Notes under the pieces: generated by a model
Database searches by the model: none
What the model was told of the DNA's origin: nothing
What the model saw: only the letters and a program-made list of their open reading frames with translations
Made by a program: the position numbers and the translations under genes
Shown here: positions 300 through 9,103 of the stretch, in pieces
How the letters are laid out: every line of letters starts with the position of its first letter
How positions within the stretch are numbered: the stretch's first letter is position 1
From: a virus
Virus record (IMG/VR): IMGVR_UViG_3300023179_000595
Location: 1-21,081 of that record
Length of the DNA: 21,081 nucleotides
Direction: 5' to 3' (one strand)

Positions 300-893
300 T
301 TAGATTACGCTTCTGATAGCATCCATAATTTTCTTTTTCAGATTCAACTCTTCACAAGAATTCGGATATAGTTTGCCGGTTATAGGAGTAATGTCGCCTC
401 TATTCAATTGAAGATCAAATCCATCTCCGTTTTTTATACTGCATCTGATTATAGTATTGTTGTCAATAACAAACGCTCCGTCATTTTTGATTACAATCAA
501 TATATCAGCAACTTCACTTAGTTCTAATGTAGATTTTTTATTGGTGCCGTTACTGTTGTTAAGTTTTATATTGAAATTTTTATTTAAATTTCCTTTTTTA
601 CCATACATACTTCCAGACAAACCACTTTTTAATTCTACAGTTAGGTTATATTTTTTCCAAAAAAAATCTTTGAATAAATCTCCAACATAAGTTAGTCCAT
701 CTTTTCCACTATACTTTTCTACAACCAATTCTATAACTAAACCTTTGATGAATCTCCATTGTCTATTATTCAAGTCTTCTAACTTATTTCCTTTATCTAT
801 GATTTTATTCCAATCAAACTTTCTAAGATCATCTATAACATCTTGAGATAAAGGTGAAGTATTATGGTTTGTAGAATACGAATATAGGCTCAT
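300..893 (-). CDS. Putative nuclease (possible restriction endonuclease), 197 aa
   Basis: No family is recognised with certainty. Three things suggest a restriction-type nuclease. It follows the DNA methyltransferase gene and overlaps its 3' end by 32 bases. It has two possible PD-(D/E)XK-like arrangements: E87-L88-K89 in TVELKS, or D130 in SEVADILIV followed by the strand and lysine of CSIK (K154). Its length, about 200 aa, suits a small type II enzyme. The N-terminal third looks helical and the middle is rich in Asn, Lys and Gly. The gene is much more AT-rich than its neighbour (about 29% G+C by hand count against about 44% in the adjoining methyltransferase stretch), which suggests separate acquisition. 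No good Shine-Dalgarno precedes the ATG at 893, so translation may depend on coupling to the methyltransferase. It might instead be an unrelated AT-rich accessory protein. Confidence 0.45.
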   Translation of the reverse strand: MSLYSYSTNHNTSPLSQDVIDDLRKFDWNKIIDKGNKLEDLNNRQWRFIKGLVIELVVEKYSGKDGLTYVGDLFKDFFWKKYNLTVELKSGLSGSMYGKKGNLNKNFNIKLNNSNGTNKKSTLELSEVADILIVIKNDGAFVIDNNTIIRCSIKNGDGFDLQLNRGDITPITGKLYPNSCEELNLKKKIMDAIRSVI

Positions 894-2415
894 ACTTTAA
901 CCACATTCCGTTGACCTTGCAAAAGTTTTTTGCTTTGGGTAGTCCAGTATCAGGATCAATGCGATTGCCGCCTGGCATCTGCGCCAGCGACATTTTCAAT
1001 ACGCCTTTGTACTCCATACCTAACTCTTCAAGAATATCTCTACTGTCCTTTTCAAGCGGTAGCATATCTGCACCAAATTTCGCATCTGCAATATTCCATA
1101 GCAGATAACGATCATTGCGTAGCCACTCAACCGCAGTCTTTAATGTTGGGCGTAGAAAGCCTTCGCGCCATGCATCATAGCCAGTAAACTTTTTATATGA
1201 TTGTGTAGGGTCTTCACTATACGCTTCCTTAGCAAAGTAAGGTGGCGATGTGAACACCATATCTAACTTGCCTTTGTACTTACAAAATCGCTCATCGGAT
1301 CCGATAACTTCTGAACCCAATTGATATATGTCGAAAGTATGGGCGCTTTGGAACAATACTCCAGAGTTCTTGGCGGCATTATAGAAATTAGCCAAATCGG
1401 CATACTTAGTAGAACCACCATCAATGCTGTGATCGGTATTAGGATCAGTACCAACATAATGCAAAGGGGTGCTAGTGCGAGTAGACATAGCACCGAGAAT
1501 ACGACCGCCCCAACCACTAGAAGGATCGTAAACCACAATTCTGTCTTGGTTCTTAATGTGCTTAGTAAATTTTTCATAAAGGTACTTTGCTGTAAGTGGA
1601 GGAAAGTTAACTGCGTATTGACACCATGATACTCGGAATGCTTTGAAGCCAAGAGGAAAAATCTTCTGTCCCATCTTGTACATACGAATGCGATACTTTG
1701 ATTGTTTCGCCTGAATGTTCTTTGTAGTATGCTCTGCACACAAAGACAAGTCTGCAATCTCTAGATACTTTGCATTCTTCAAGTCTTCGTTATAACCAGT
1801 ATACTCTTCTTCTTCGTCACGCGATTCTATCCAATAATCATAGCCATACTCGCGCAAGTTGTTTTGTTCAAAATACTGAACAAATTCATCCCCAGTCTTG
1901 AATTTCTTTTGATGACTACCAACCTCAACTACTTCGCCTACTCTGATAGTGTTTGAATAGTGATAGAACGAATCACGCTTGTAATGTCTTCGCGCATACT
2001 TCAAAGTCTTTTCAAGTAAATCATCACGAACAAAGTGATCGTAGATAGACAATCCATCATCGTTCTTAGTATAGTTAATCCGTGTCTTCATCATGGTAGG
2101 AAACCATTGATTTGCGGCATTGCCAACTACACTAGTATTTCGAATTACATCTTTTTCTCCGGTAAGTTCGTCTGTTTGTTCAAATTCATGAACAGAAAAG
2201 CCGTACATTTCCCTAAATTGTTTTCGAATCTCGTTCTCATCCCAACCAACCCGCGGAGGCTGACCAAGAGTATCCCACGCATAGACAACCGCTTTACGGA
2301 GGTCAATAAACCATTGTCTGAATTCATCATCAGTCATCCTTTGAATTTCTTCAAACGACTTGTTTGTATCATGATTCAACAACCAATCGTTTCGTTCATA
2401 AAAATGTTTAGTCAT
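862..2415 (-). CDS. DNA methyltransferase (amino-methyltransferase, TSPPY type)
   Basis: This is an S-adenosylmethionine-dependent DNA amino-methyltransferase (N4-cytosine or N6-adenine) of 517 aa. The AdoMet-binding motif I is DPSSGWGGR at about residues 297-305, and the catalytic motif IV is TSPPY at about 389-393. The TSPPY form is more typical of N4-cytosine enzymes than NPPY. Motif I precedes motif IV, unlike the beta-class order, and the target-recognition region must lie either in the roughly 290-residue N-terminal extension or in the short tail. I prefer the ATG at 2415, which overlaps the preceding gene's stop as ATGA, over an in-frame GTG at 2442. The stop lies inside the nuclease-like gene. 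The target site cannot be read from the sequence. It could be half of a restriction-modification system or a solitary phage methylase that protects phage DNA. Confidence 0.85.
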   Translation of the reverse strand: MTKHFYERNDWLLNHDTNKSFEEIQRMTDDEFRQWFIDLRKAVVYAWDTLGQPPRVGWDENEIRKQFREMYGFSVHEFEQTDELTGEKDVIRNTSVVGNAANQWFPTMMKTRINYTKNDDGLSIYDHFVRDDLLEKTLKYARRHYKRDSFYHYSNTIRVGEVVEVGSHQKKFKTGDEFVQYFEQNNLREYGYDYWIESRDEEEEYTGYNEDLKNAKYLEIADLSLCAEHTTKNIQAKQSKYRIRMYKMGQKIFPLGFKAFRVSWCQYAVNFPPLTAKYLYEKFTKHIKNQDRIVVYDPSSGWGGRILGAMSTRTSTPLHYVGTDPNTDHSIDGGSTKYADLANFYNAAKNSGVLFQSAHTFDIYQLGSEVIGSDERFCKYKGKLDMVFTSPPYFAKEAYSEDPTQSYKKFTGYDAWREGFLRPTLKTAVEWLRNDRYLLWNIADAKFGADMLPLEKDSRDILEELGMEYKGVLKMSLAQMPGGNRIDPDTGLPKAKNFCKVNGMWLKYEPIFVFYKP

Positions 2416-2627
2416 TTCTTCTTTTTTCTCTCTCTGTGCCACTCACGCACCATTTTTCTTTTATATTCGTCAAAGGTCATGTGAATAACGGAATCGCTTT
2501 TTGCCCATTGTTCTCTCCATTTACTAATGAGTTTTAAAGAAGGTCTGGGTACTCTTTTAATTCCTCGATTAATATCTTTAGATATATCGTTATGAACATT
2601 AACACCTTCGGCTTTGCTATTCTTCAT
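2412..2627 (-). CDS. Small basic hypothetical protein, 71 aa
   Basis: Not recognised. The product is 71 aa and basic, with a mid-section WREQWAKSDSVIHMTFDEYK and a C-terminal run of Arg and Lys (RERKKKK). The longer frame begins at 2669, but the ATG at 2627 has a GGAAGAG ribosome site six bases upstream, so I use it. It overlaps the end of the 59-aa gene before it, and its own stop overlaps the methyltransferase start as ATGA. It is therefore in the same coupled operon. A nucleic-acid contact role is compatible with the charge but is only a guess. Confidence 0.6.
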   Translation of the reverse strand: MKNSKAEGVNVHNDISKDINRGIKRVPRPSLKLISKWREQWAKSDSVIHMTFDEYKRKMVREWHRERKKKK

Positions 2628-2796
2628 GAGTTTCTCTTCCACACTCAAATGCGGCTTGAAGCCATTCAATCATTCGTTCGCGTTTAATGTAGTCTAACGC
2701 TTGAAACTCATCATAAAATCTTTCGCCTCTAGTAGCATAATTTTCTATCTCATCAAAATAATCTTTGAAAGTAGAATACTTGTAATCATATTTCAT
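2617..2796 (-). CDS. Small hypothetical protein, 59 aa
   Basis: Not recognised. This short gene falls just below a 60-codon cut-off. It starts at ATG 2796, overlapping the TGA of dCMP deaminase as ATGA, and ends at TAG 2619-2617. The product begins MKYDYKYSTFKDYFDEIEN and ends ECGRETHEE. It is rich in aromatic and charged residues and looks like a soluble helical protein with a segment ERMIEWLQAAFECG. Without it there would be an unexplained gap of about 165 bases in an otherwise gap-free operon, which supports it being real. Confidence 0.65.
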   Translation of the reverse strand: MKYDYKYSTFKDYFDEIENYATRGERFYDEFQALDYIKRERMIEWLQAAFECGRETHEE

Positions 2797-3305
2797 TTAA
2801 TTTGCCTTATCGATAAGCCGCATTTATTTAGGAAATCTATTCCGTCATTGTTGCGATATGCTTCGCCATAAAAAACTTCTTTAATGCCAGATTGATATAT
2901 CATTTTAGCACATTCTACACATGGGGCGCAAGTGATAAACATACTTGCGCCGTAACCACTTTCAGAAGACCTAGCAAGTTTTGCAATTGCGTTTGATTCT
3001 GCATGGAGAACTTCCGGCTTTGTTTTTAGTCCGTAGCGAACATTTCTTTGAGCACCTTCGTGCCAACCTTCGTAGGGATATTGTGCATCGAACTCTTCTG
3101 GATTTATCCAGCCACCTGCGCCATTATCCCATACCTTATCTTCACAATCGTTATCCCAACCCGCTGGCATACCGTTGTAGCCAATGGAAATGATTCTATC
3201 ATCTTTAACTATGACTGCACCAACCTTTTTTCTAACTGCACTACTATGCTCTGCGAATAGTCTAGCAGTTTTCATATAAGTGCCTAGGTATTTTTCTTTT
3301 ATCAT
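2793..3305 (-). CDS. cd: Deoxycytidylate (dCMP) deaminase
   Basis: The product converts dCMP to dUMP, supplying the precursor for dTMP synthesis during phage replication. It is a zinc-dependent cytidine deaminase-fold enzyme of 170 aa, close to the usual phage length. The zinc and proton-shuttle motif is H101-A-E103, and the second zinc motif is C126-A-P-C129-x-x-C132. The region KKVGAVIVKDDRIISIGYNG near residues 27-45 is typical of the family. An insert containing NPEEFDAQ at 68-75 corresponds to the longer loop seen in phage dCMP deaminases. The start overlaps the sugar kinase stop as ATGA, and the stop overlaps the next ATG in the same way. Allosteric control by dCTP/dTTP is known for T4 Cd but cannot be judged here. 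Confidence 0.93.
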   Translation of the reverse strand: MIKEKYLGTYMKTARLFAEHSSAVRKKVGAVIVKDDRIISIGYNGMPAGWDNDCEDKVWDNGAGGWINPEEFDAQYPYEGWHEGAQRNVRYGLKTKPEVLHAESNAIAKLARSSESGYGASMFITCAPCVECAKMIYQSGIKEVFYGEAYRNNDGIDFLNKCGLSIRQIK

Positions 3306-4075
3306 AGCGAATTCAAATCTTCGTCAGTAATTGTGTATGTGCCAGTATGTTGTACCGAGATAGATGCTAACTTGTTTGCGAATGGTAATGCATTTTCAAT
3401 TGAACCTGTAAACAGATAGAATACTGCAAGTGCCGCAAGATGCACATCGCCTGCGCCAGTTACATCATGCACTTCAACTTTTTTAGTTGGATACATTTTA
3501 CCATCATATAGTGTGCCTTCAGAACCTTTAGTTACAATGAGATAGCGAGAACTCGGTAATGTTTGTGCGCTACGATGTTCTAAATCGTTAATCTTGACAT
3601 AGCAACCATTAAACTCTTCTAAGTCTGTCTTCTTAGTGTCAATGAAGATTGGACCCCTAAACAAATTACGCACTTCGCGAATTGTTTCGGGTGAAACACA
3701 GCCTTTGTTGTAGTCTGAAATTACAATCGCATCATATGTTTCTGGAATAAGAGTAGCAAATTCAATTGGTTCACTTTTGTGATCTTCATCAACTCTCAGT
3801 AATTGATAACCACTCTTCGTGTCAATGAATCTTGTTTTGTATGAAAGTGGTCCACTTAGTTGTTGTACATCACAATGTAATGCTTTTAAATTTTCATACA
3901 CATTGCTTGCCATTCCAGGACGCGATTCTTCCTTACCAGACAATTTTAAAACTGGTACAGGAGATTCTGGAGAGATTCTGTCTACAGTTCCATAAACATA
4001 TTTGTCAATGCAAGCGTCACCGATTAGCAATATCTTGTATCTTTCTCGTTGAAGAGTATCCACCAAATCTTTCAT
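3302..4075 (-). CDS. PfkB/ribokinase-family sugar kinase, RfaE domain I (HldA)-like
   Basis: This is a carbohydrate kinase of the PfkB family, closest by eye to the kinase domain of RfaE/HldE, which phosphorylates D-glycero-D-manno-heptose 7-phosphate at C1. The N-terminal signature IGDACIDKYVYG is followed by RISPESPVPVL (residues 33-43), which mirrors the HldE substrate loop. SDYNKG lies at 120-125 and the catalytic DVTGAGD at 204-210 with Asp210 as general base. I use the ATG at 4075, which has an AGAGG site nine bases upstream, giving 257 aa. That is shorter than the roughly 320-aa HldE kinase domain, so some lid sequence is missing. It overlaps the preceding nucleotidyltransferase gene by 59 bases. 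The true substrate could be another sugar phosphate. Confidence 0.85.
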   Translation of the reverse strand: MKDLVDTLQRERYKILLIGDACIDKYVYGTVDRISPESPVPVLKLSGKEESRPGMASNVYENLKALHCDVQQLSGPLSYKTRFIDTKSGYQLLRVDEDHKSEPIEFATLIPETYDAIVISDYNKGCVSPETIREVRNLFRGPIFIDTKKTDLEEFNGCYVKINDLEHRSAQTLPSSRYLIVTKGSEGTLYDGKMYPTKKVEVHDVTGAGDVHLAALAVFYLFTGSIENALPFANKLASISVQHTGTYTITDEDLNSL

Positions 4076-4424
4076 AAAATATAACCTCTTTACAATATTT
4101 TTTAGACAGTTGACTTGTCTCTCTATGATCACTACCCTTAACGATAATGTCTGGCTTGTATGCTTCCATGATGTGAATCAAATCCATATCACTATCAAAA
4201 ACTAAAACTTCATCAACACACTTCAAGTTTGCTAAGAATGTTTTTCGTTCGTACAAATTATTAATAGGGCGACTCTCGCCCTTCAGTTCTTTAATTCGTC
4301 TGTCTGTATCTATTGCAACGCAAAGATGATCACCTAGGCTTCTTGCGTAATTTAGAAGCCGTAGGTGACCGAGATGCAAAACATCAAATGAACCATTAAC
4401 GAATATTCTCTTTTTGACTATCAC
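4017..4424 (-). CDS. Cytidylyltransferase-fold nucleotidyltransferase, RfaE domain II (HldC)-like
   Basis: The product should transfer a nucleotide to a sugar 1-phosphate. In the RfaE/HldE family this makes ADP-heptose from heptose 1-phosphate and ATP. The 135-aa protein is a complete single domain. The nucleotide-binding GSFDVLHLGH motif (HxGH) is at residues 11-20, VKGSDH at 95-100, and the second active-site motif GYSSTRKI at 122-129. The gene overlaps the cupin gene before it by 29 bases and the kinase gene after it by 59 bases. In bacterial HldE the kinase is N-terminal and this domain C-terminal. Here they are separate genes in the opposite order, so this is not a simple split of a fused gene. 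A cytidylyl or other donor specificity is possible. Confidence 0.87.
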   Translation of the reverse strand: MIVKKRIFVNGSFDVLHLGHLRLLNYARSLGDHLCVAIDTDRRIKELKGESRPINNLYERKTFLANLKCVDEVLVFDSDMDLIHIMEAYKPDIIVKGSDHRETSQLSKKYCKEVIFYERFGGYSSTRKIQDIANR

Positions 4425-4767
4425 CTGCCATCACCCTATAGTTGTCTTCCACCGAATCAGGTGTGCTTACTTCAATTATACTACCTTTCTCGACACAAAT
4501 CAAGCGGTGAGGCAACAATGGCGGGTTATGCCATGTGTCGCCAACCTCAAGATACTTGTCTTTTAATTGTGCGTTAGTAGTATCAATGTACTGAACAATA
4601 AATCTACCACTCAATACATACCATGTTTCATCTTTGACGGCATGAAAGTGCATGGAGAATTTTGCACCTTCGTTAAAGTTCAAAAACTTTCCACAATACT
4701 TATCATTGGTGCAGAAAATTAATTCGCTACCCCATCCTTTAGAAACCTCACCATTAAGTCTCGTCAT
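4396..4767 (-). CDS. Single-domain cupin (sugar isomerase/epimerase-like)
   Basis: A 123-aa cupin beta-barrel protein. Cupin motif 1 is complete: the metal-binding H-F-H pair followed by Glu in MHFHAVKDETWYVLSG. Motif 2 is recognisable as GDTWHNPPLLPHRL with the fourth metal ligand His. The overall pattern resembles the cupin half of mannose-6-phosphate isomerase/GDP-mannose pyrophosphorylase and related sugar-phosphate proteins. I chose the ATG at 4767 because an AGAGAG site lies seven bases upstream and the product begins naturally (MTRLNGEVSKGWGSE). The longer frame from 4836 lies inside the preceding gene. It sits directly before the nucleotidyltransferase and sugar kinase, suggesting a joint role in nucleotide-sugar production. 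Exact reaction unknown. Confidence 0.82.
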   Translation of the reverse strand: MTRLNGEVSKGWGSELIFCTNDKYCGKFLNFNEGAKFSMHFHAVKDETWYVLSGRFIVQYIDTTNAQLKDKYLEVGDTWHNPPLLPHRLICVEKGSIIEVSTPDSVEDNYRVMAGDSQKENIR

Positions 4768-5005
4768 ATAATTCTCTCTGTTCAAACTTCTTTTCTTGAA
4801 TTGTTTTTTCTTTAAATGTTTTTCTTGGATTTGCACACATCACGCAACCTGGTATACCACAATTTGTAGCGTGATGTTTTACATATCGATGCGCTTCGAT
4901 TACTGGTAACTTAAACGCTTTTGCAATCTTAACCTGTTTACGAATAGCGTTTTCATCTCTCATGATACGCTTGCCATGTTTTTCTTTATCTCTTTCGTTA
5001 CTCAT
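4754..5005 (-). CDS. Small Cys/His (zinc-knuckle-like) protein, 83 aa
   Basis: Function not recognised. The 83-aa protein is highly charged, with a compact putative metal site: H44 and H45 in VKHHATNC, then C49, C54 and C57 in CGIPGCVMCANPRK. The arrangement H-x4-C-x4-C-x2-C could bind one zinc ion. The flanks are rich in Lys, Arg and Glu (KTFKEKTIQEKKFEQ), compatible with a nucleic-acid or ribosome contact. A GGAGAGAC ribosome site precedes the ATG. It starts 22 bases after the PLP-enzyme stop and overlaps the cupin start by 14 bases. I have an impression of similar small proteins in other marine T4-like phages but cannot verify it here. Confidence 0.7.
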   Translation of the reverse strand: MSNERDKEKHGKRIMRDENAIRKQVKIAKAFKLPVIEAHRYVKHHATNCGIPGCVMCANPRKTFKEKTIQEKKFEQRELYDET

Positions 5006-5027
5006 TTAGTCTCTCCTTAATTGAAAA

Positions 5028-5789
5028 CTAGGCTACATTCCAGATTAATGCTCCTTTCTTTCCATTGGCGATTACAAAATCCCACACCTTTGCATCATAG
5101 TACGGCTCTGAAGGATATGGGGGCATTCGATCAGGTTCTACTTTCTGATCATACGCATAAGATGAACGCATCGTGATAGCACGACCTTTTTCATAATCAC
5201 TCATTTTATGTCCTACTTCTACCGCATATGCAGGTACAGTAGGAAATGCTAATTGCAACCCGCGGTTGAGAGTACCGCTTGATGCTACAGTCCAAATTTC
5301 TGTTGGTTTGATTTTTAAGTTTCGTGCTACTTTGACGATTGATGCAAGCACAGTTGGGTGTTCAAGACCAAGAGGCAATAATCTACGATTCTTCGCATCT
5401 TCTTCGTAGTAGTTTCTTGCTTTCGCTTTTGTTACATTCAACATACCATTCGCTACCCAATGAATTGTTCCGCCCATGTCTAAGACTTGTTGTTGATGCC
5501 AAGTTGGCTCTTTACGCTTAGCCATGAAGAAGGTTGCTTTCTTTCCATATTTATTACAAACATGTGTTAAAGAAATTGGTCCCCACCCTACTTTGTTTGC
5601 GCCGCCGAAAACCCATTCATCACCTTCTGTTGTGACAAGATAATCGATGAATCTTGCTTTGCTACCATAGCCTAATTTATCGTCACGCACAACATGAAAG
5701 CCATTGTATTCTTCCACAACGGGCGGTGGATATGGGTCTTCCCATCCTTTTATTGTATCAAGTAATTCTTCAGTTGACAAGTTTATCAT
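5028..5789 (-). CDS. PLP-dependent enzyme, fold type II (ACC deaminase/cysteine desulfhydrase-like)
   Basis: The product resembles the tryptophan-synthase-beta superfamily of pyridoxal-phosphate enzymes, especially the 1-aminocyclopropane-1-carboxylate deaminase/D-cysteine desulfhydrase branch. The likely Schiff-base lysine is K44 in DDKLGYGSKARFIDYL, matching the 'GNKxRK' region of that branch. The phosphate-binding loop is probably SSGTLNRGL at 170-178. At 253 aa it is shorter than the usual roughly 320-340 aa, so the small domain or C-terminus is reduced. Its start lies 20 bases inside the oxygenase gene, so the two are coupled. Substrate unknown. Possibilities include amino-acid metabolism or installing an amino-acid-derived group on nucleic acid or protein. 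Neither is shown by the sequence. Confidence 0.75.
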   Translation of the reverse strand: MINLSTEELLDTIKGWEDPYPPPVVEEYNGFHVVRDDKLGYGSKARFIDYLVTTEGDEWVFGGANKVGWGPISLTHVCNKYGKKATFFMAKRKEPTWHQQQVLDMGGTIHWVANGMLNVTKAKARNYYEEDAKNRRLLPLGLEHPTVLASIVKVARNLKIKPTEIWTVASSGTLNRGLQLAFPTVPAYAVEVGHKMSDYEKGRAITMRSSYAYDQKVEPDRMPPYPSEPYYDAKVWDFVIANGKKGALIWNVA

Positions 5790-6882
5790 GTAGTTTTTTC
5801 TCGGTAATAATGTCTACGACAAGATGAATGCGCTCTTCGTCTCCACCATTGACAGCCATGTGAGGTTTACGGGTATCTAAGAACCAGCATTCACCAGTTT
5901 TCATATGCACCTTTTGTGGTGAGCCTTTTGTATCCCATACAGTAAATAACATATTAGGATTTGTTTTGATCGGAAAGTGAAGCCGTGCAAGTTTTTCTAA
6001 CGACCCACCGGAATCAGGATCAACCTGATCGGTGTGTCTTGAAAGTTCACCACCAGCAGGTTTCAATCGCATGAATCGTACTCGGTGAACAGTCTCGCCA
6101 TAAGGGCGAATCAATTCTCGTACTTCAGGAAATAAATCAAACAAAGGTGTATCTTGTAGATAAAATTCTTTGTCTTTATTTTCTTCTTTCCATGCATCAT
6201 TCATTTCAATTGGTTTTGTAATGAATGATGGGTCTGATGTATAGCCGCGCAACGACAATGCGCCCCATGACTTGTCTTTGTTGTAGTTGCTATAGTGGTT
6301 CGTGAAACTAGGCAACTCAGTAAGTTTGTTATGAATTGATTCAATCAATGCGCTATCAATGTTTTCTACTTTTTTAATTGATAGATATTCTGCTGGATCA
6401 ACTTTAGGAAACACTCTTTGCTTACCGCGATAATAAATTGCGTAAACTTCGCCATATGTTGTAATCTTAGGACCAACATAACAAAAACCAGATTCTTCTG
6501 CTAACTTGCAATGATCTTTATTCTCAGCCCATACGATTAGCCAAACATCTTTTAAAGGTAGTCCAAAAACATTTGTTACAGGTTCAAGACATTTTTTAAG
6601 TGTACTCAAATTTCCTGATAACTTGCTAACTGTCATGTCGCCTTTTTGTTTCTTTGCGATAACAGTATCACCATGCATGGTAATGTTTGATGCAGACTTT
6701 GATTCAGCCACTTCAAGCATTGCATCGTCAAGAATCTCTAATGTTCCTTTGTGCAATGATTCGGCAATGTTATTCTTTTTAAATTTTGCAAAAGGAGAAA
6801 GCGTGTACTGATTATAATCATCGTACTTCTTTTCTAACTCCTTGAGGTAGTCTAGTTCGTATCCGTGTTGCCAATCTTTCAT
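5770..6882 (-). CDS. Aspartyl/asparaginyl beta-hydroxylase-type 2OG-Fe(II) oxygenase with GNAT-like N-terminus
   Basis: The C-terminal half (about 265-360) is a clear Asp/Asn beta-hydroxylase-family oxygenase, which uses 2-oxoglutarate, O2 and Fe(II) to hydroxylate a side chain. It shows RVRFMRLKPAGGELSRHTD with H283 and D285, RLHFPIKTNP, and KPHMAVNGGDEERIHL with H341 as second iron ligand and R351 to bind 2-oxoglutarate. The N-terminal part (about 1-155) is not needed for this family. It contains WLIVWAENKDHCKLAEESGF followed by YVG, which looks like the acetyl-CoA-binding end of a GNAT acyltransferase, so a two-domain fusion is likely. Total 370 aa. It starts by an ATGA overlap with peptide deformylase and overlaps the PLP enzyme at its end. 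The target is unknown. Confidence 0.85.
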   Translation of the reverse strand: MKDWQHGYELDYLKELEKKYDDYNQYTLSPFAKFKKNNIAESLHKGTLEILDDAMLEVAESKSASNITMHGDTVIAKKQKGDMTVSKLSGNLSTLKKCLEPVTNVFGLPLKDVWLIVWAENKDHCKLAEESGFCYVGPKITTYGEVYAIYYRGKQRVFPKVDPAEYLSIKKVENIDSALIESIHNKLTELPSFTNHYSNYNKDKSWGALSLRGYTSDPSFITKPIEMNDAWKEENKDKEFYLQDTPLFDLFPEVRELIRPYGETVHRVRFMRLKPAGGELSRHTDQVDPDSGGSLEKLARLHFPIKTNPNMLFTVWDTKGSPQKVHMKTGECWFLDTRKPHMAVNGGDEERIHLVVDIITEKKLHDKLVN

Positions 6883-7394
6883 TTTTTAACCTTATTGACT
6901 CTGCGCTGAAGAATCATTCTTTTGCGTTTTGATCTTTCTACTTCAAAAGATGAAGCAACTTGCGTAAACACTTTACCTTCAAGGTGATCATACTCATGCA
7001 ATGCAACTCGCGCACTCATACCAATAAAGGTAGAAGTGTCTGTAATGTTTTCCCATGTTTGATAGCGCACACGAATTGAATCTGGTCGTTTCACACTCAA
7101 GAACAATAACGGAAAACTTAAACAACCTTCCTTCATTGGTAAAATGTTTGAAGAATGAAACACAATACGCGGATTGAATAACACGATTGGGTCCTTATCA
7201 TTACGCATCGCAAACACGCGATATGGATGTCCAACTTGCACAGCAGATAGTCCTAGACCATCATGTCGAGCCATTGTATTATATAGGCTCTCTGCAAATT
7301 CTTTTGGATCAAATGGCGGGTTAGCAAAGTCAAATTCTACCGATGGCTGTAATAGCATCGGAGAACTTTCTGGTATTAGTTTCATATCAATCAT
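6879..7394 (-). CDS. def: Peptide deformylase
   Basis: The product removes the N-formyl group from the initiator methionine of new proteins. All three family motifs are intact in 171 aa: GLGLSAVQ at 46-53, EGCLSFP at 89-95 with metal ligand C91, and HEYDHLEG at 133-140 with metal ligands H133 and H137 and catalytic E134. The protein ends in a basic tail. It is coupled by ATGA overlaps to gene 46 before it and to the oxygenase after it. Peptide deformylases are known in T4-like cyanophages, where they are thought to speed maturation of phage or host proteins made during infection. That role is knowledge of relatives, not something shown here. Confidence 0.95.
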   Translation of the reverse strand: MIDMKLIPESSPMLLQPSVEFDFANPPFDPKEFAESLYNTMARHDGLGLSAVQVGHPYRVFAMRNDKDPIVLFNPRIVFHSSNILPMKEGCLSFPLLFLSVKRPDSIRVRYQTWENITDTSTFIGMSARVALHEYDHLEGKVFTQVASSFEVERSKRKRMILQRRVNKVKK

Positions 7395-9103
7395 TTTACA
7401 ATCCTCGAAAAATTATTTACTTTTTCAAATCGAATCACATTTCTAAACTTGTCTTGTAGTATATCACCTTTGTGACTAATAACAAAAAGATTTGTGTTCT
7501 CAAGCACGGCAAGAATCTTCATTAAGTCTTCTGTACCGTTTGCATCAAGTGACGAATCAAAAATCTCATCCAATATCAGAATGTTTGTATTGGTAGAGTT
7601 TTTTAACTTAGCAACCGCGCGCCATGTCAACATCAATGCCATATCAATACGCTGTTTCTCACCTTCTGAGAATGACGCATAACTAAAATCATCACGATGG
7701 CGAGACTTGATTGTTTCTTTAAACGATTCATCCAAATTGAAGTTTACAAAGAAGTCCAATGTAGTCAAATACTTGTTGACAAGTTTGTTGATAACCGGTA
7801 GATATTGTTTAACAATTTTTGTTTTGATACCAGTATCTTTCAACATCAACGCGGCAGTACTGTAGTAGTTCAACTCATCGATAAAGGTGTTTATATGAAT
7901 CTTTATCTCACTTAACTGCTCTTTTATAGCACTTAATTCGTTCTCATCTTTTTCGGATACCGATGATGCGTTACGAATCTCTTCAATCTGTTTGTTCAAC
8001 TTGGTAATCTGTTTGTTCATTTCAGTAATGGATGAGTTGTCAGATGCAACCTTTACTTGAAGATAATTAATTTTTTTCTGTGTTTCTGTAATCTTCTCTA
8101 GTTTAGTTTGTTCAACAGTTAGTTTTGTCAAGAGTTGTTCAAGCGCGGTATTACATTCATCGGCTTTGGTAGTGAGAACGCTAAGTTGCGCTTCTTTAAA
8201 CTCCACGGCAATGGCTTGCCTACAGGTTGGGCAATCGTCATTGTGCCCGAAGAAATGTATATCCTTTCGAAATTTGGATACATTGCTTTCAATCTGCGAT
8301 TCAAGTTTTGTAAGTTTCTTGACCTTACTCTCAATTTCAATTTTATTTTCCACAATGGCATTGAGGGTCTCAATTTCATTGGTGGTGGTAGATATTTCTT
8401 CATGAAGGGTTTGTATAGCACTCTGATTACTCTGTATCTCTTCAACATACTCTGCAATCCTATCTTCGTTATTGCGTTTTAATTCATCAACATATTCTTT
8501 CTTGAGATTGTACTTTTGTTCAAGCAAACCCATCTCATGTTTCTTCTCTGATATGTTTTCTTTAGCAATTTGCACTTTATCTTTTACAATACCATTCATG
8601 CGCGAAAAGATTTGAATGTCAAGCAAGTCTTCAATGATTGATCTACGATCTGAAGCAGACAATTGCATGAACGGCGTGAATGATGCACTACCAAGAATCA
8701 CGATCTGCGTGAATGACTTGTAGTTAAGTTTAAGAATAAACTTCTCTAGATATTCTTGATAGTCTTTGATTGCGGCATCTTGCGATAGCAGATTACCATT
8801 GCAATAAATTTCAAAGATGTTTGGCTTAATTCCACGCACCACTTTGTATGACTTGCTACCAATATCAAACTCTACTTCAACCACAGTATCTTTACCATTA
8901 ATTGAATTTACAAGTTGCAGTTTGTTGATATTACGAAACGGTTTACCAAACAAGCAAAAGCACAATGCATCAAGCATTGTTGACTTACCTGAACCATTGC
9001 TACCAACAATCAATGTAGTTGATTCGTTGTTTAAATTTAGTTCGGTGAAAAGATTGCCTGTGCTAAGTAAATTTTTCCAACGAAGTTTACGAAATAAAAT
9101 CAT
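7391..9103 (-). CDS. 46: gp46 recombination endonuclease subunit (SbcC/Rad50-like ATPase)
   Basis: This is the SMC-type ATPase partner of gp47. The complex processes double-strand ends to feed recombination-dependent replication and degrade host DNA. The 570-aa protein has Walker A GSNGSGKS at 34-41, then a long predicted coiled coil interrupted by a zinc hook CPTC at 291-294. The ABC signature SFSEGEKQR is near 478-485 and Walker B ILILDEIFD near 508-516, followed by the D-loop SSLD. The length fits T4 gp46 (560 aa). The start overlaps the gp47 stop as ATGA, as expected for subunits made in fixed ratio. It is read in the same transcript as uvsY, uvsW and 55. Confidence 0.96.
   Translation of the reverse strand: MILFRKLRWKNLLSTGNLFTELNLNNESTTLIVGSNGSGKSTMLDALCFCLFGKPFRNINKLQLVNSINGKDTVVEVEFDIGSKSYKVVRGIKPNIFEIYCNGNLLSQDAAIKDYQEYLEKFILKLNYKSFTQIVILGSASFTPFMQLSASDRRSIIEDLLDIQIFSRMNGIVKDKVQIAKENISEKKHEMGLLEQKYNLKKEYVDELKRNNEDRIAEYVEEIQSNQSAIQTLHEEISTTTNEIETLNAIVENKIEIESKVKKLTKLESQIESNVSKFRKDIHFFGHNDDCPTCRQAIAVEFKEAQLSVLTTKADECNTALEQLLTKLTVEQTKLEKITETQKKINYLQVKVASDNSSITEMNKQITKLNKQIEEIRNASSVSEKDENELSAIKEQLSEIKIHINTFIDELNYYSTAALMLKDTGIKTKIVKQYLPVINKLVNKYLTTLDFFVNFNLDESFKETIKSRHRDDFSYASFSEGEKQRIDMALMLTWRAVAKLKNSTNTNILILDEIFDSSLDANGTEDLMKILAVLENTNLFVISHKGDILQDKFRNVIRFEKVNNFSRIVK

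Follow-up and report, generated by a model that had tools for sequence, protein, structure and literature searches.

The 21,081-nucleotide stretch of viral DNA analysed here (the window) belongs to an aquatic T4-like bacterial virus and carries, next to a core replication gene, a tight group of enzyme genes, which raises the question of whether these genes serve one pathway and on which substrate such a pathway would act. The original prediction had delimited a block of seven genes at 2793-6882, read from one coupled transcript, and proposed that it may build and attach a chemical group in a DNA, RNA or protein modification pathway. All the listed enzymes were found on the minus strand, with neighbours overlapping or almost touching, by Pfam, PHROG and NCBIfam matches and, for the GNAT part, by AlphaFold topology and hhalign (Table 1). 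Between gene 46 and the ORF at 300, neighbouring genes overlap by 4-59 bases at all junctions but one, a 22-base gap, and a single coupled transcript is therefore plausible; the cupin and the kinase probably start at internal ATGs, at 4767 and 4075, respectively. The order of most of the genes is repeated in dozens of contigs at 60-98% identity, indicating that the cluster is not due to chance. The proposed interval, however, turned out to be too narrow, as a functionally linked methyltransferase (MT) gene lies outside of it.

Table 1. Predicted genes of the enzyme cluster and its immediate neighbours in the window.
Gene product	Group	Coordinates	Strand	Size, motifs and matches
MT, SPPY-motif amino-methyltransferase (predicted)	core	862..2418	-	~518 aa; motif I DPSSGWGGR, motif IV FTSPPYF
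dCMP deaminase, nucleotide pool	separable	2793..3305	-	PF00383 E=7e-22, phrog_174
HldE/RfaE domain-I-like sugar-phosphate kinase (PfkB)	variable cassette	3302..4075	-	TIGR02198 E=7e-43, below equivalog cut-off
HldE/RfaE domain-II-like nucleotidyltransferase	variable cassette	4017..4424	-	TIGR02199 E=2e-31, below equivalog cut-off
Cupin, sugar-enzyme-like	variable cassette	4396..4767	-	phrog_7851; Pfam Cupin_2 E=7e-8; MannoseP_isomer weak
Cys/His mini-protein	accessory	4754..5005	-	83 aa; phrog_4499, without assigned function
PLP enzyme, fold-type II PALP (predicted)	core	5028..5789	-	253 aa; phrog_7093 E=4e-27
GNAT-like domain (residues ~1-155) fused to amino-acid-hydroxylase-like 2OG-Fe(II) oxygenase (~156-370)	core	5770..6882	-	PF05118 E=3.5e-13
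Peptide deformylase	upstream neighbour, position conserved	6879..7394	-	PF01327 E=1e-31

The comparison of more than 300 related loci, most of them in one syntenic array and collected from the best 80 matches per scan, splits the genes into a conserved core (GNAT-2OG, PLP enzyme and MT), a variable sugar cassette and separable genes. The MT lies at most 4 kb from the PLP gene in 27 of 28 non-redundant loci and the GNAT-2OG gene is linked with it in 20/28; this linkage is seen in several gene orders and also distant from gene 46. The expectation that the genes travel together thus holds for the 2OG, PLP and methyltransferase genes and fails for the cassette, which is missing in most relatives. 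The dCMP deaminase and the mini-protein, both counted as pathway members in the original prediction, are dispensable in relatives: the former lies about 11 kb from the MT in one genome (G003), and the latter (phrog_4499) was found in only part of the PLP loci. Peptide deformylase keeps its position in loci without the 2OG and PLP genes and is probably outside the pathway. Relatives of the PLP enzyme are encoded by more than 500 viral-contig stretches and are almost confined to virus-like contigs, the scan of a genome collection (genome_contigs) returning two MAG contigs only; among the PLP matches listed, none came from a marine cyanophage.

The cassette, composed of the cupin, nucleotidyltransferase and kinase genes (3302-4767), was found in few relatives, six loci among the matches listed. 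The best NCBIfam model for the kinase was rfaE domain I, with 147 bits vs a cut-off of 345, and the nucleotidyltransferase matched rfaE domain II with 108 bits vs 181.5. At least 35 phage records, mostly of cyanophages, carry relatives of the kinase, several of them adjoining a phosphoheptose isomerase. By these matches the three genes look like a separate heptose-type nucleotide-sugar insertion, the exact specificity being putative. That all seven enzymes make and attach one sugar- or amino-acid-derived group would agree with the translational coupling of all the window genes and with the position of the cassette which, where present, is always between mini-protein/PLP and dcd/MT. Most core loci, however, do without the cassette, cyanophages have it without the PLP and 2OG genes, and a polysaccharide-type sugar cluster, located elsewhere in the genome of the close relative G001, could consume its product. 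We consider a single seven-enzyme pathway very improbable.

The MT is, by its motifs, a putative N4/N6 amino-methyltransferase, predicted to methylate exocyclic amines of DNA. The SAM motif I DPS.GWGGR and the [LIVMF]TSPP[FY] motif are both present in 13/13 MT relatives. The window copy gave a partial match to the Pfam N6_N4_Mtase model, PF01555 (E=2.8e-4), with 21.3 bits under the gathering score of 26.7 that the L003 and L071 relatives exceed; it also matched phrog_12517 (E=2e-10) and a PADLOC Type II MTase model (E=4e-8). Other than MTase models, PADLOC gave one weak match, probably by chance. A search of PDB sequences with the MT profile (A3) returned nothing useful, and the structure model (pLDDT 69.8, too weak for detail) matched only generic SAM-methyltransferases.

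The PLP enzyme appears from its sequence to be a reduced fold-type II PALP of the ACC-deaminase/D-cysteine-desulfhydrase type. It scores 17.9 bits with PF00291, against a gathering score of 35, and its relatives in L003 and L004 score 46 and 40, respectively. In the catalytic-lysine motif VVRDD-G[ST]K-R, Lys44 is invariant (15/15), and the G-[GST]-x-K-x-R lysine motif and a glycine/serine phosphate loop were both present in all 15 sequences. A PDB sequence search with the PLP profile (A2) gave nothing useful. By profile comparison the enzyme matched a second phage PALP family (phrog_3650), via which the lysine lines up with a GGNK-type motif. Members of this second family fill the PLP slot in L160, L164 and L174 and are also encoded by Vi01-like Ackermannviridae.

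The association of PLP and MT takes further forms in other phages. In Erythrobacter phages the PLP domain sits inside the MTase, in ZS04 between motif I and an SCPPY motif, with Pfam matches to both, and in L243 a single ORF encodes the MT followed by the PLP enzyme. Erythrobacter phage R6L is a further cultured phage carrying MT and PALP. Microcystis phage Mae-JY30 has adjacent, overlapping MT and PLP genes behind a ParB-like gene, and in mycobacteriophage AlanGrant a ParB-MT fusion overlaps a PALP of the second family. Literature searches found no description of the MTase-PALP pairing, which is weak evidence with most subscription papers outside their coverage. These arrangements bear on the possibility that the MT protects the phage DNA as a conventional DNA amino-methyltransferase, by forming N4-methylcytosine or N6-methyladenine, and that the PLP and 2OG-GNAT genes are unrelated metabolic or host-takeover genes of the gene 46 hotspot. 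Indeed, this hotspot also accepts the sugar cassette, dcd and SET proteins, the MT is alone at the same position in L294 and L278, on contigs without PALP, and since several MT loci have neither PLP nor 2OG neighbours, plain methylation is possible. An unrelated origin is nevertheless unlikely in view of a PLP gene that is nearly always found with the MT, of the two fusion forms, of the in-place swap for the other PALP family and of the renewed PLP/PALP-MT pairing, well away from gene 46, in unrelated siphoviruses.

As for the third core protein, its 2OG domain matched Asp_Arg_Hydrox (PF05118) with 50 bits vs a cut-off of 22.6, and H283, D285, H341 and R351, the HxD...H iron triad and the 2-oxoglutarate arginine, are invariant. 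Among the matches listed, this domain is closest to proline hydroxylases (L-proline cis-4-hydroxylase, E=7e-12; VIA Z 14.9) and to a nucleoside-antibiotic hydroxylase. The N-terminal 155 residues are GNAT-like in the strand/helix order of the AlphaFold model (pLDDT 88.6) and match the stand-alone GNAT of related loci (hhalign probability 89%, E=2e-6). The acyl-CoA P-loop (Q/RxxGxG/A), EQGSGNA in the stand-alone GNATs, is eroded in the fused domain; the top PDB sequence matches of the N-terminal profile were acetyltransferases, not significant (E 0.17), and 2OG-domain matches took up the fold searches run with the GNAT-2OG model, which thus barely probed the GNAT part. The sole full-length cultured-phage relative among the matches listed is gp4 of Mycobacterium phage LilMcDreamy (TM 0.82), adjoined by gp3, an amino acid:DNA transferase (ADDT; 47 bits vs a cut-off of 26).

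This neighbour, together with the fusion of MT-family members with ParB-like domains, of the kind typical for phage methylases acting on DNA, and the MT matches to Type II DNA MTase models, argues for DNA and against RNA or protein, such as a tRNA or a translation factor, as the substrate. RNA and proteins are also among the substrates of SAM enzymes carrying PPY-type motifs, proteins are frequent targets of GNATs, an EF-Tu prolyl hydroxylase is among the 2OG relatives, and the SET proteins and the deformylase lie nearby, the latter suiting a translation-directed set. On balance, we find an RNA- or protein-directed role rather unlikely.

Our preferred reading, to which we assign a probability of roughly 60%, is that MT, PLP enzyme and GNAT-2OG constitute a phage DNA-base hypermodification module that acts stepwise and installs an amino-acid-like group on a base, possibly cytosine as suggested by the FTSPPY motif of the MT. 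The idea of a modification pathway is thus retained for the core, backed by the PLP-MT linkage, the fusions, the in-place PLP replacement and the LilMcDreamy context, and not for the 4 kb block as a whole. The MT would flip the base out and put a SAM-derived group on its exocyclic amine, after which the PLP enzyme would build or rearrange an amino-acid-like substituent on the same base; the 2OG domain would hydroxylate this substituent, as its relatives do with proline, the GNAT-like domain would bind or acylate it, and the final product would shield the phage DNA against host nucleases. Simpler versions would comprise the MT alone or the MT and the 2OG protein. The architectures observed are indeed graded (MT alone; 2OG+MT; 2OG+GNAT+MT; 2OG+PLP+MT), and the MT alone or with the 2OG enzyme only fits a stepwise pathway.

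The phage hypermodifications described so far add groups to a 5-hydroxymethyl pyrimidine, replace guanine by deazaguanine or, in the case of Mom, acylate adenine. No ThyA-family pyrimidine hydroxymethylase, TET/JBP oxygenase or ADDT turned up in up to nine related contigs (≤172 kb, possibly fragments), and hence these genomes show no sign of the established routes via a 5-hydroxymethyl pyrimidine. A more specific proposal, which we regard as doubtful but worth stating, is that the modification is carried by the exocyclic amine group of a cytosine (or an adenine), where the MTase-fold enzyme would add an amino-acid-bearing group, for example the 3-amino-3-carboxypropyl of SAM or a group from the PLP partner (fused in some phages), and PLP, 2OG and GNAT would process the amino acid on the DNA. 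If true, this would be a base hypermodification without a 5-hydroxymethyl pyrimidine start. That amino-methyltransferases and PLP enzymes are so widely paired, fusions of two kinds included, points to chemistry beyond the known list; the gene set is small, concrete and amenable to nucleoside mass spectrometry, and such a module would add to the picture of how abundant aquatic phages may evade nuclease defence.

Known systems share parts of this locus. By its match the window kinase corresponds to domain I, and the window nucleotidyltransferase to domain II, of the HldE/RfaE heptose kinase/nucleotidyltransferase, but they are two split genes scoring below the curated cut-offs, and neither an isomerase nor a phosphatase is encoded in the 4 kb block. 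In the ParB-MTase (+PALP) pairs of Erythrobacter phages, Microcystis phage and mycobacteriophages, a PALP is likewise present, adjacent or inserted, and the Microcystis MT is of the same family (phrog_12517); a ParB-like N-terminal domain or gene, however, replaces the 250-aa N-terminal region of the window MT, no GNAT-2OG adjoins, and the annotation is only DNA methylase or hypothetical. LilMcDreamy genes 1-4 encode ParB, TET/JBP-like, ADDT and GNAT-2OG proteins; gp4 has the same full-length architecture as the window protein (22-25% identity), but its partners are the ADDT and the weakly TET/JBP-like oxygenase instead of MT and PLP. D-cysteine desulfhydrase/ACC deaminase (PALP, TIGR01275), where the second phage PALP family has its best matches with a solved structure, have the fold and PLP-lysine motif in common with the window PLP enzyme, which is shorter, nearly virus-only and tied to a methyltransferase. 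The PALP of Vi01, Vi01_182, presumably the PLP enzyme of the 5-NeOmdU pathway, belongs to a family to which the window enzyme is remotely related and from which its slot is filled in the three loci mentioned above. The DNA of Vi01-like Ackermannviridae (Salmonella phage Vi01) contains 5-(2-aminoethoxy)methyldeoxyuridine (PMC11721090, PMC6449724). Thymidine hypermodification in Vi01 combines a fold-type-II PALP with an amino-acid-derived base substituent, as proposed for the window, whereas the window relatives searched do not carry the thymidylate-synthase-type hydroxymethylase or the ADDT, and the entry enzyme would be an SPPY amino-methyltransferase, with a GNAT-2OG enzyme added.

The window (G000), a 21 kb piece of a T4-like virus of bacteria, carries a minus-strand array that runs from gene 46 through peptide deformylase, a GNAT-like domain fused to a 2OG-Fe(II) oxygenase (GNAT-2OG), a PALP-type fold-type II enzyme (PLP), a mini-protein, a cupin, a nucleotidyltransferase, a kinase, dCMP deaminase, two small ORFs and an SPPY-motif amino-methyltransferase (MT) to a last ORF. 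All junctions overlap, by 4-59 bases, except one, a 22-base gap. The original prediction had proposed a single enzyme block at 2793-6882, and profile matches bore out all the enzyme types it listed. The last ORF, possibly a restriction-type partner of the MT, matched nothing in Pfam, PHROGs or PADLOC. It contains a nuclease-reminiscent VELKSG stretch and has one close relative (88%) in the viral locus L029.

Features of the window and of related viral loci (L-numbers)
Feature	Location	Strand	Remark
Gene 46	window 7391-9103	-	start of overlapping array
GNAT-2OG	window 5770-6882	-	
PLP	window 5028-5789	-	
Cupin, nucleotidyltransferase, kinase	window 3302-4767	-	HldE-like cassette
MT	window 862-2418	-	
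ORF, 197 aa	window 300-893	-	32-base overlap with end of MT
Sugar-biosynthesis cluster (L084)	G001 contig 24815-33013		DegT aminotransferase, TPP enzyme, GDP-mannose-dehydratase-like, glycosyltransferase
Core genes	L218		MT - 2OG - YunG-like - PLP
Core genes	L212		2OG - YunG-like - PLP - MT
Core genes	L229, L239		small MT adjoining PLP, near clamp-loader genes
YunG-like	L212:5477-5947, L218:5489-5953, L200:5565-5996		immediately before PLP
SET-domain	L233:3666-4283, L228:1756-2457		inserted before gene 46
ThiS-family	L229:3202-3435		between small MT and PLP
R6L	L002:2362-3405		PAPS-reductase-like gene of Erythrobacter phage R6L
LilMcDreamy gp2	L069:855-1787		

Relatives were gathered by four scans of viral contigs, with at most the 80 best matches per scan. 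Nearly all of the 64 loci listed in the first PLP scan show the order 46 - deformylase - GNAT-2OG - PLP - ... - MT, and only some carry the mini-protein and dCMP deaminase. Once the PLP sequences were clustered at 90% identity, the matches listed gave 28 loci with flanks of at least 4 kb in both directions, in which the MT lies within 4 kb of PLP in 27 and GNAT-2OG in 20; these loci are not all independent, because the gene-46 array is common to most. Independent support for the linkage is the diversity of arrangements together with unrelated siphoviruses. The dependence is asymmetric, PLP occurring almost only with the MT and the MT also alone, which fits a core modifying enzyme plus optional tailoring steps. 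Among the 25 MT representatives from the matches listed, a 2OG protein is the sole partner in L290, L291 and L315, a short 2OG protein and a stand-alone GNAT occur in L320 and L280, and 2OG and PLP are both missing in L294 and L278. Eight MT contigs, which may be fragments, had no PALP elsewhere in the same contig.

The YunG-like proteins (PF24585) score above the cut-off in L218 and below it in L200, and L212 is alike by eye. The SET-domain proteins lie near PLP-MT pairs in viral contigs. The ThiS-family (sulfur-carrier-like) protein, with a GG end, and the PAPS-reductase-like gene of phage R6L hint that sulfur chemistry could feature in some versions.

Fusions of the PLP enzyme with the MT are known from two phage groups. 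In Erythrobacter phage ZS04 the methyltransferase contains the PLP domain between its SAM and SCPPY motifs (in Pfam, PALP within an N6_N4_Mtase protein), and in L243 a single ORF, with PALP and MTase matches in one protein, joins them in another arrangement. Microcystis phage Mae-JY30 has ParB-like, MTase and PLP genes in succession, overlapping at each pair. The ordinary PLP gene is absent from L160, L164 and L174, where its place, between GNAT-2OG and MT, is taken by a PALP of a second family (phrog_3650); in mycobacteriophage AlanGrant a PALP of this type is overlapped by a ParB-MTase fusion.

The HxD...H...R set is complete in the window 2OG domain, which is nearest to L-proline cis-4-hydroxylase and a hydroxylase from a nucleoside-antibiotic pathway. 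The catalytic lysine motif of the PLP protein is kept in 15/15 relatives, and the acyl-CoA loop of the GNAT-like domain is eroded. FTSPPY-type motifs, as in the MT, are usual for N4-cytosine enzymes, and a Vibrio relative is annotated as one. We infer the DNA substrate, the order and the chemistry, and put at roughly 0.6 the probability that the core (MT, PLP and GNAT-2OG) modifies DNA bases stepwise. The MT would target the exocyclic amine of a base, the PLP enzyme may work on that base or provide the group that is transferred, and the 2OG domain would hydroxylate an amino-acid-like substituent, which the GNAT-like domain may bind or acylate. Amine-linked amino-acid chemistry on the DNA base is rather unlikely.

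The cupin-nucleotidyltransferase-kinase cassette was found, among the matches listed, in L005, L009, L013, L016 and L198, and partially in the truncated L006. Elsewhere the kinase occurs mostly in cyanophages, several times adjoining phosphoheptose isomerase, and the PLP search gave no matches in the cyanophages that carry it. With few core loci holding the cassette and the kinase present in cyanophages lacking PLP, the cassette is therefore a separable sugar-nucleotide unit. Its product plausibly has a user in G001, a close relative of 143 kb whose surface-polysaccharide-type genes encode aminotransferase, dehydratase, epimerase and glycosyltransferase enzymes.

When the viral structure library was searched with the GNAT-2OG model, the only full-length match was gp4 of mycobacteriophage LilMcDreamy (TM 0.82). 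The adjoining gp3 matches amino acid:DNA transferase (ADDT; 47 bits against a cut-off of 26), and gp2, whose annotation as queuine tRNA-ribosyltransferase looks wrong, weakly matches TET/JBP oxygenases (Tet_JBP). The pathway to 5-(2-aminoethoxy)methyluridine includes a PLP enzyme, possibly a phrog_3650 PALP. This nucleoside is present in the DNA of Vi01-like Ackermannviridae (PMC11721090, PMC6449724), in which the phrog_3650 family, with 346 phage records altogether, is common. ThyA-family, TET/JBP and ADDT genes were absent from the related genomes searched, whose contigs may be fragments. The proposed route would therefore not match the known 5-hydroxymethyl-pyrimidine routes.
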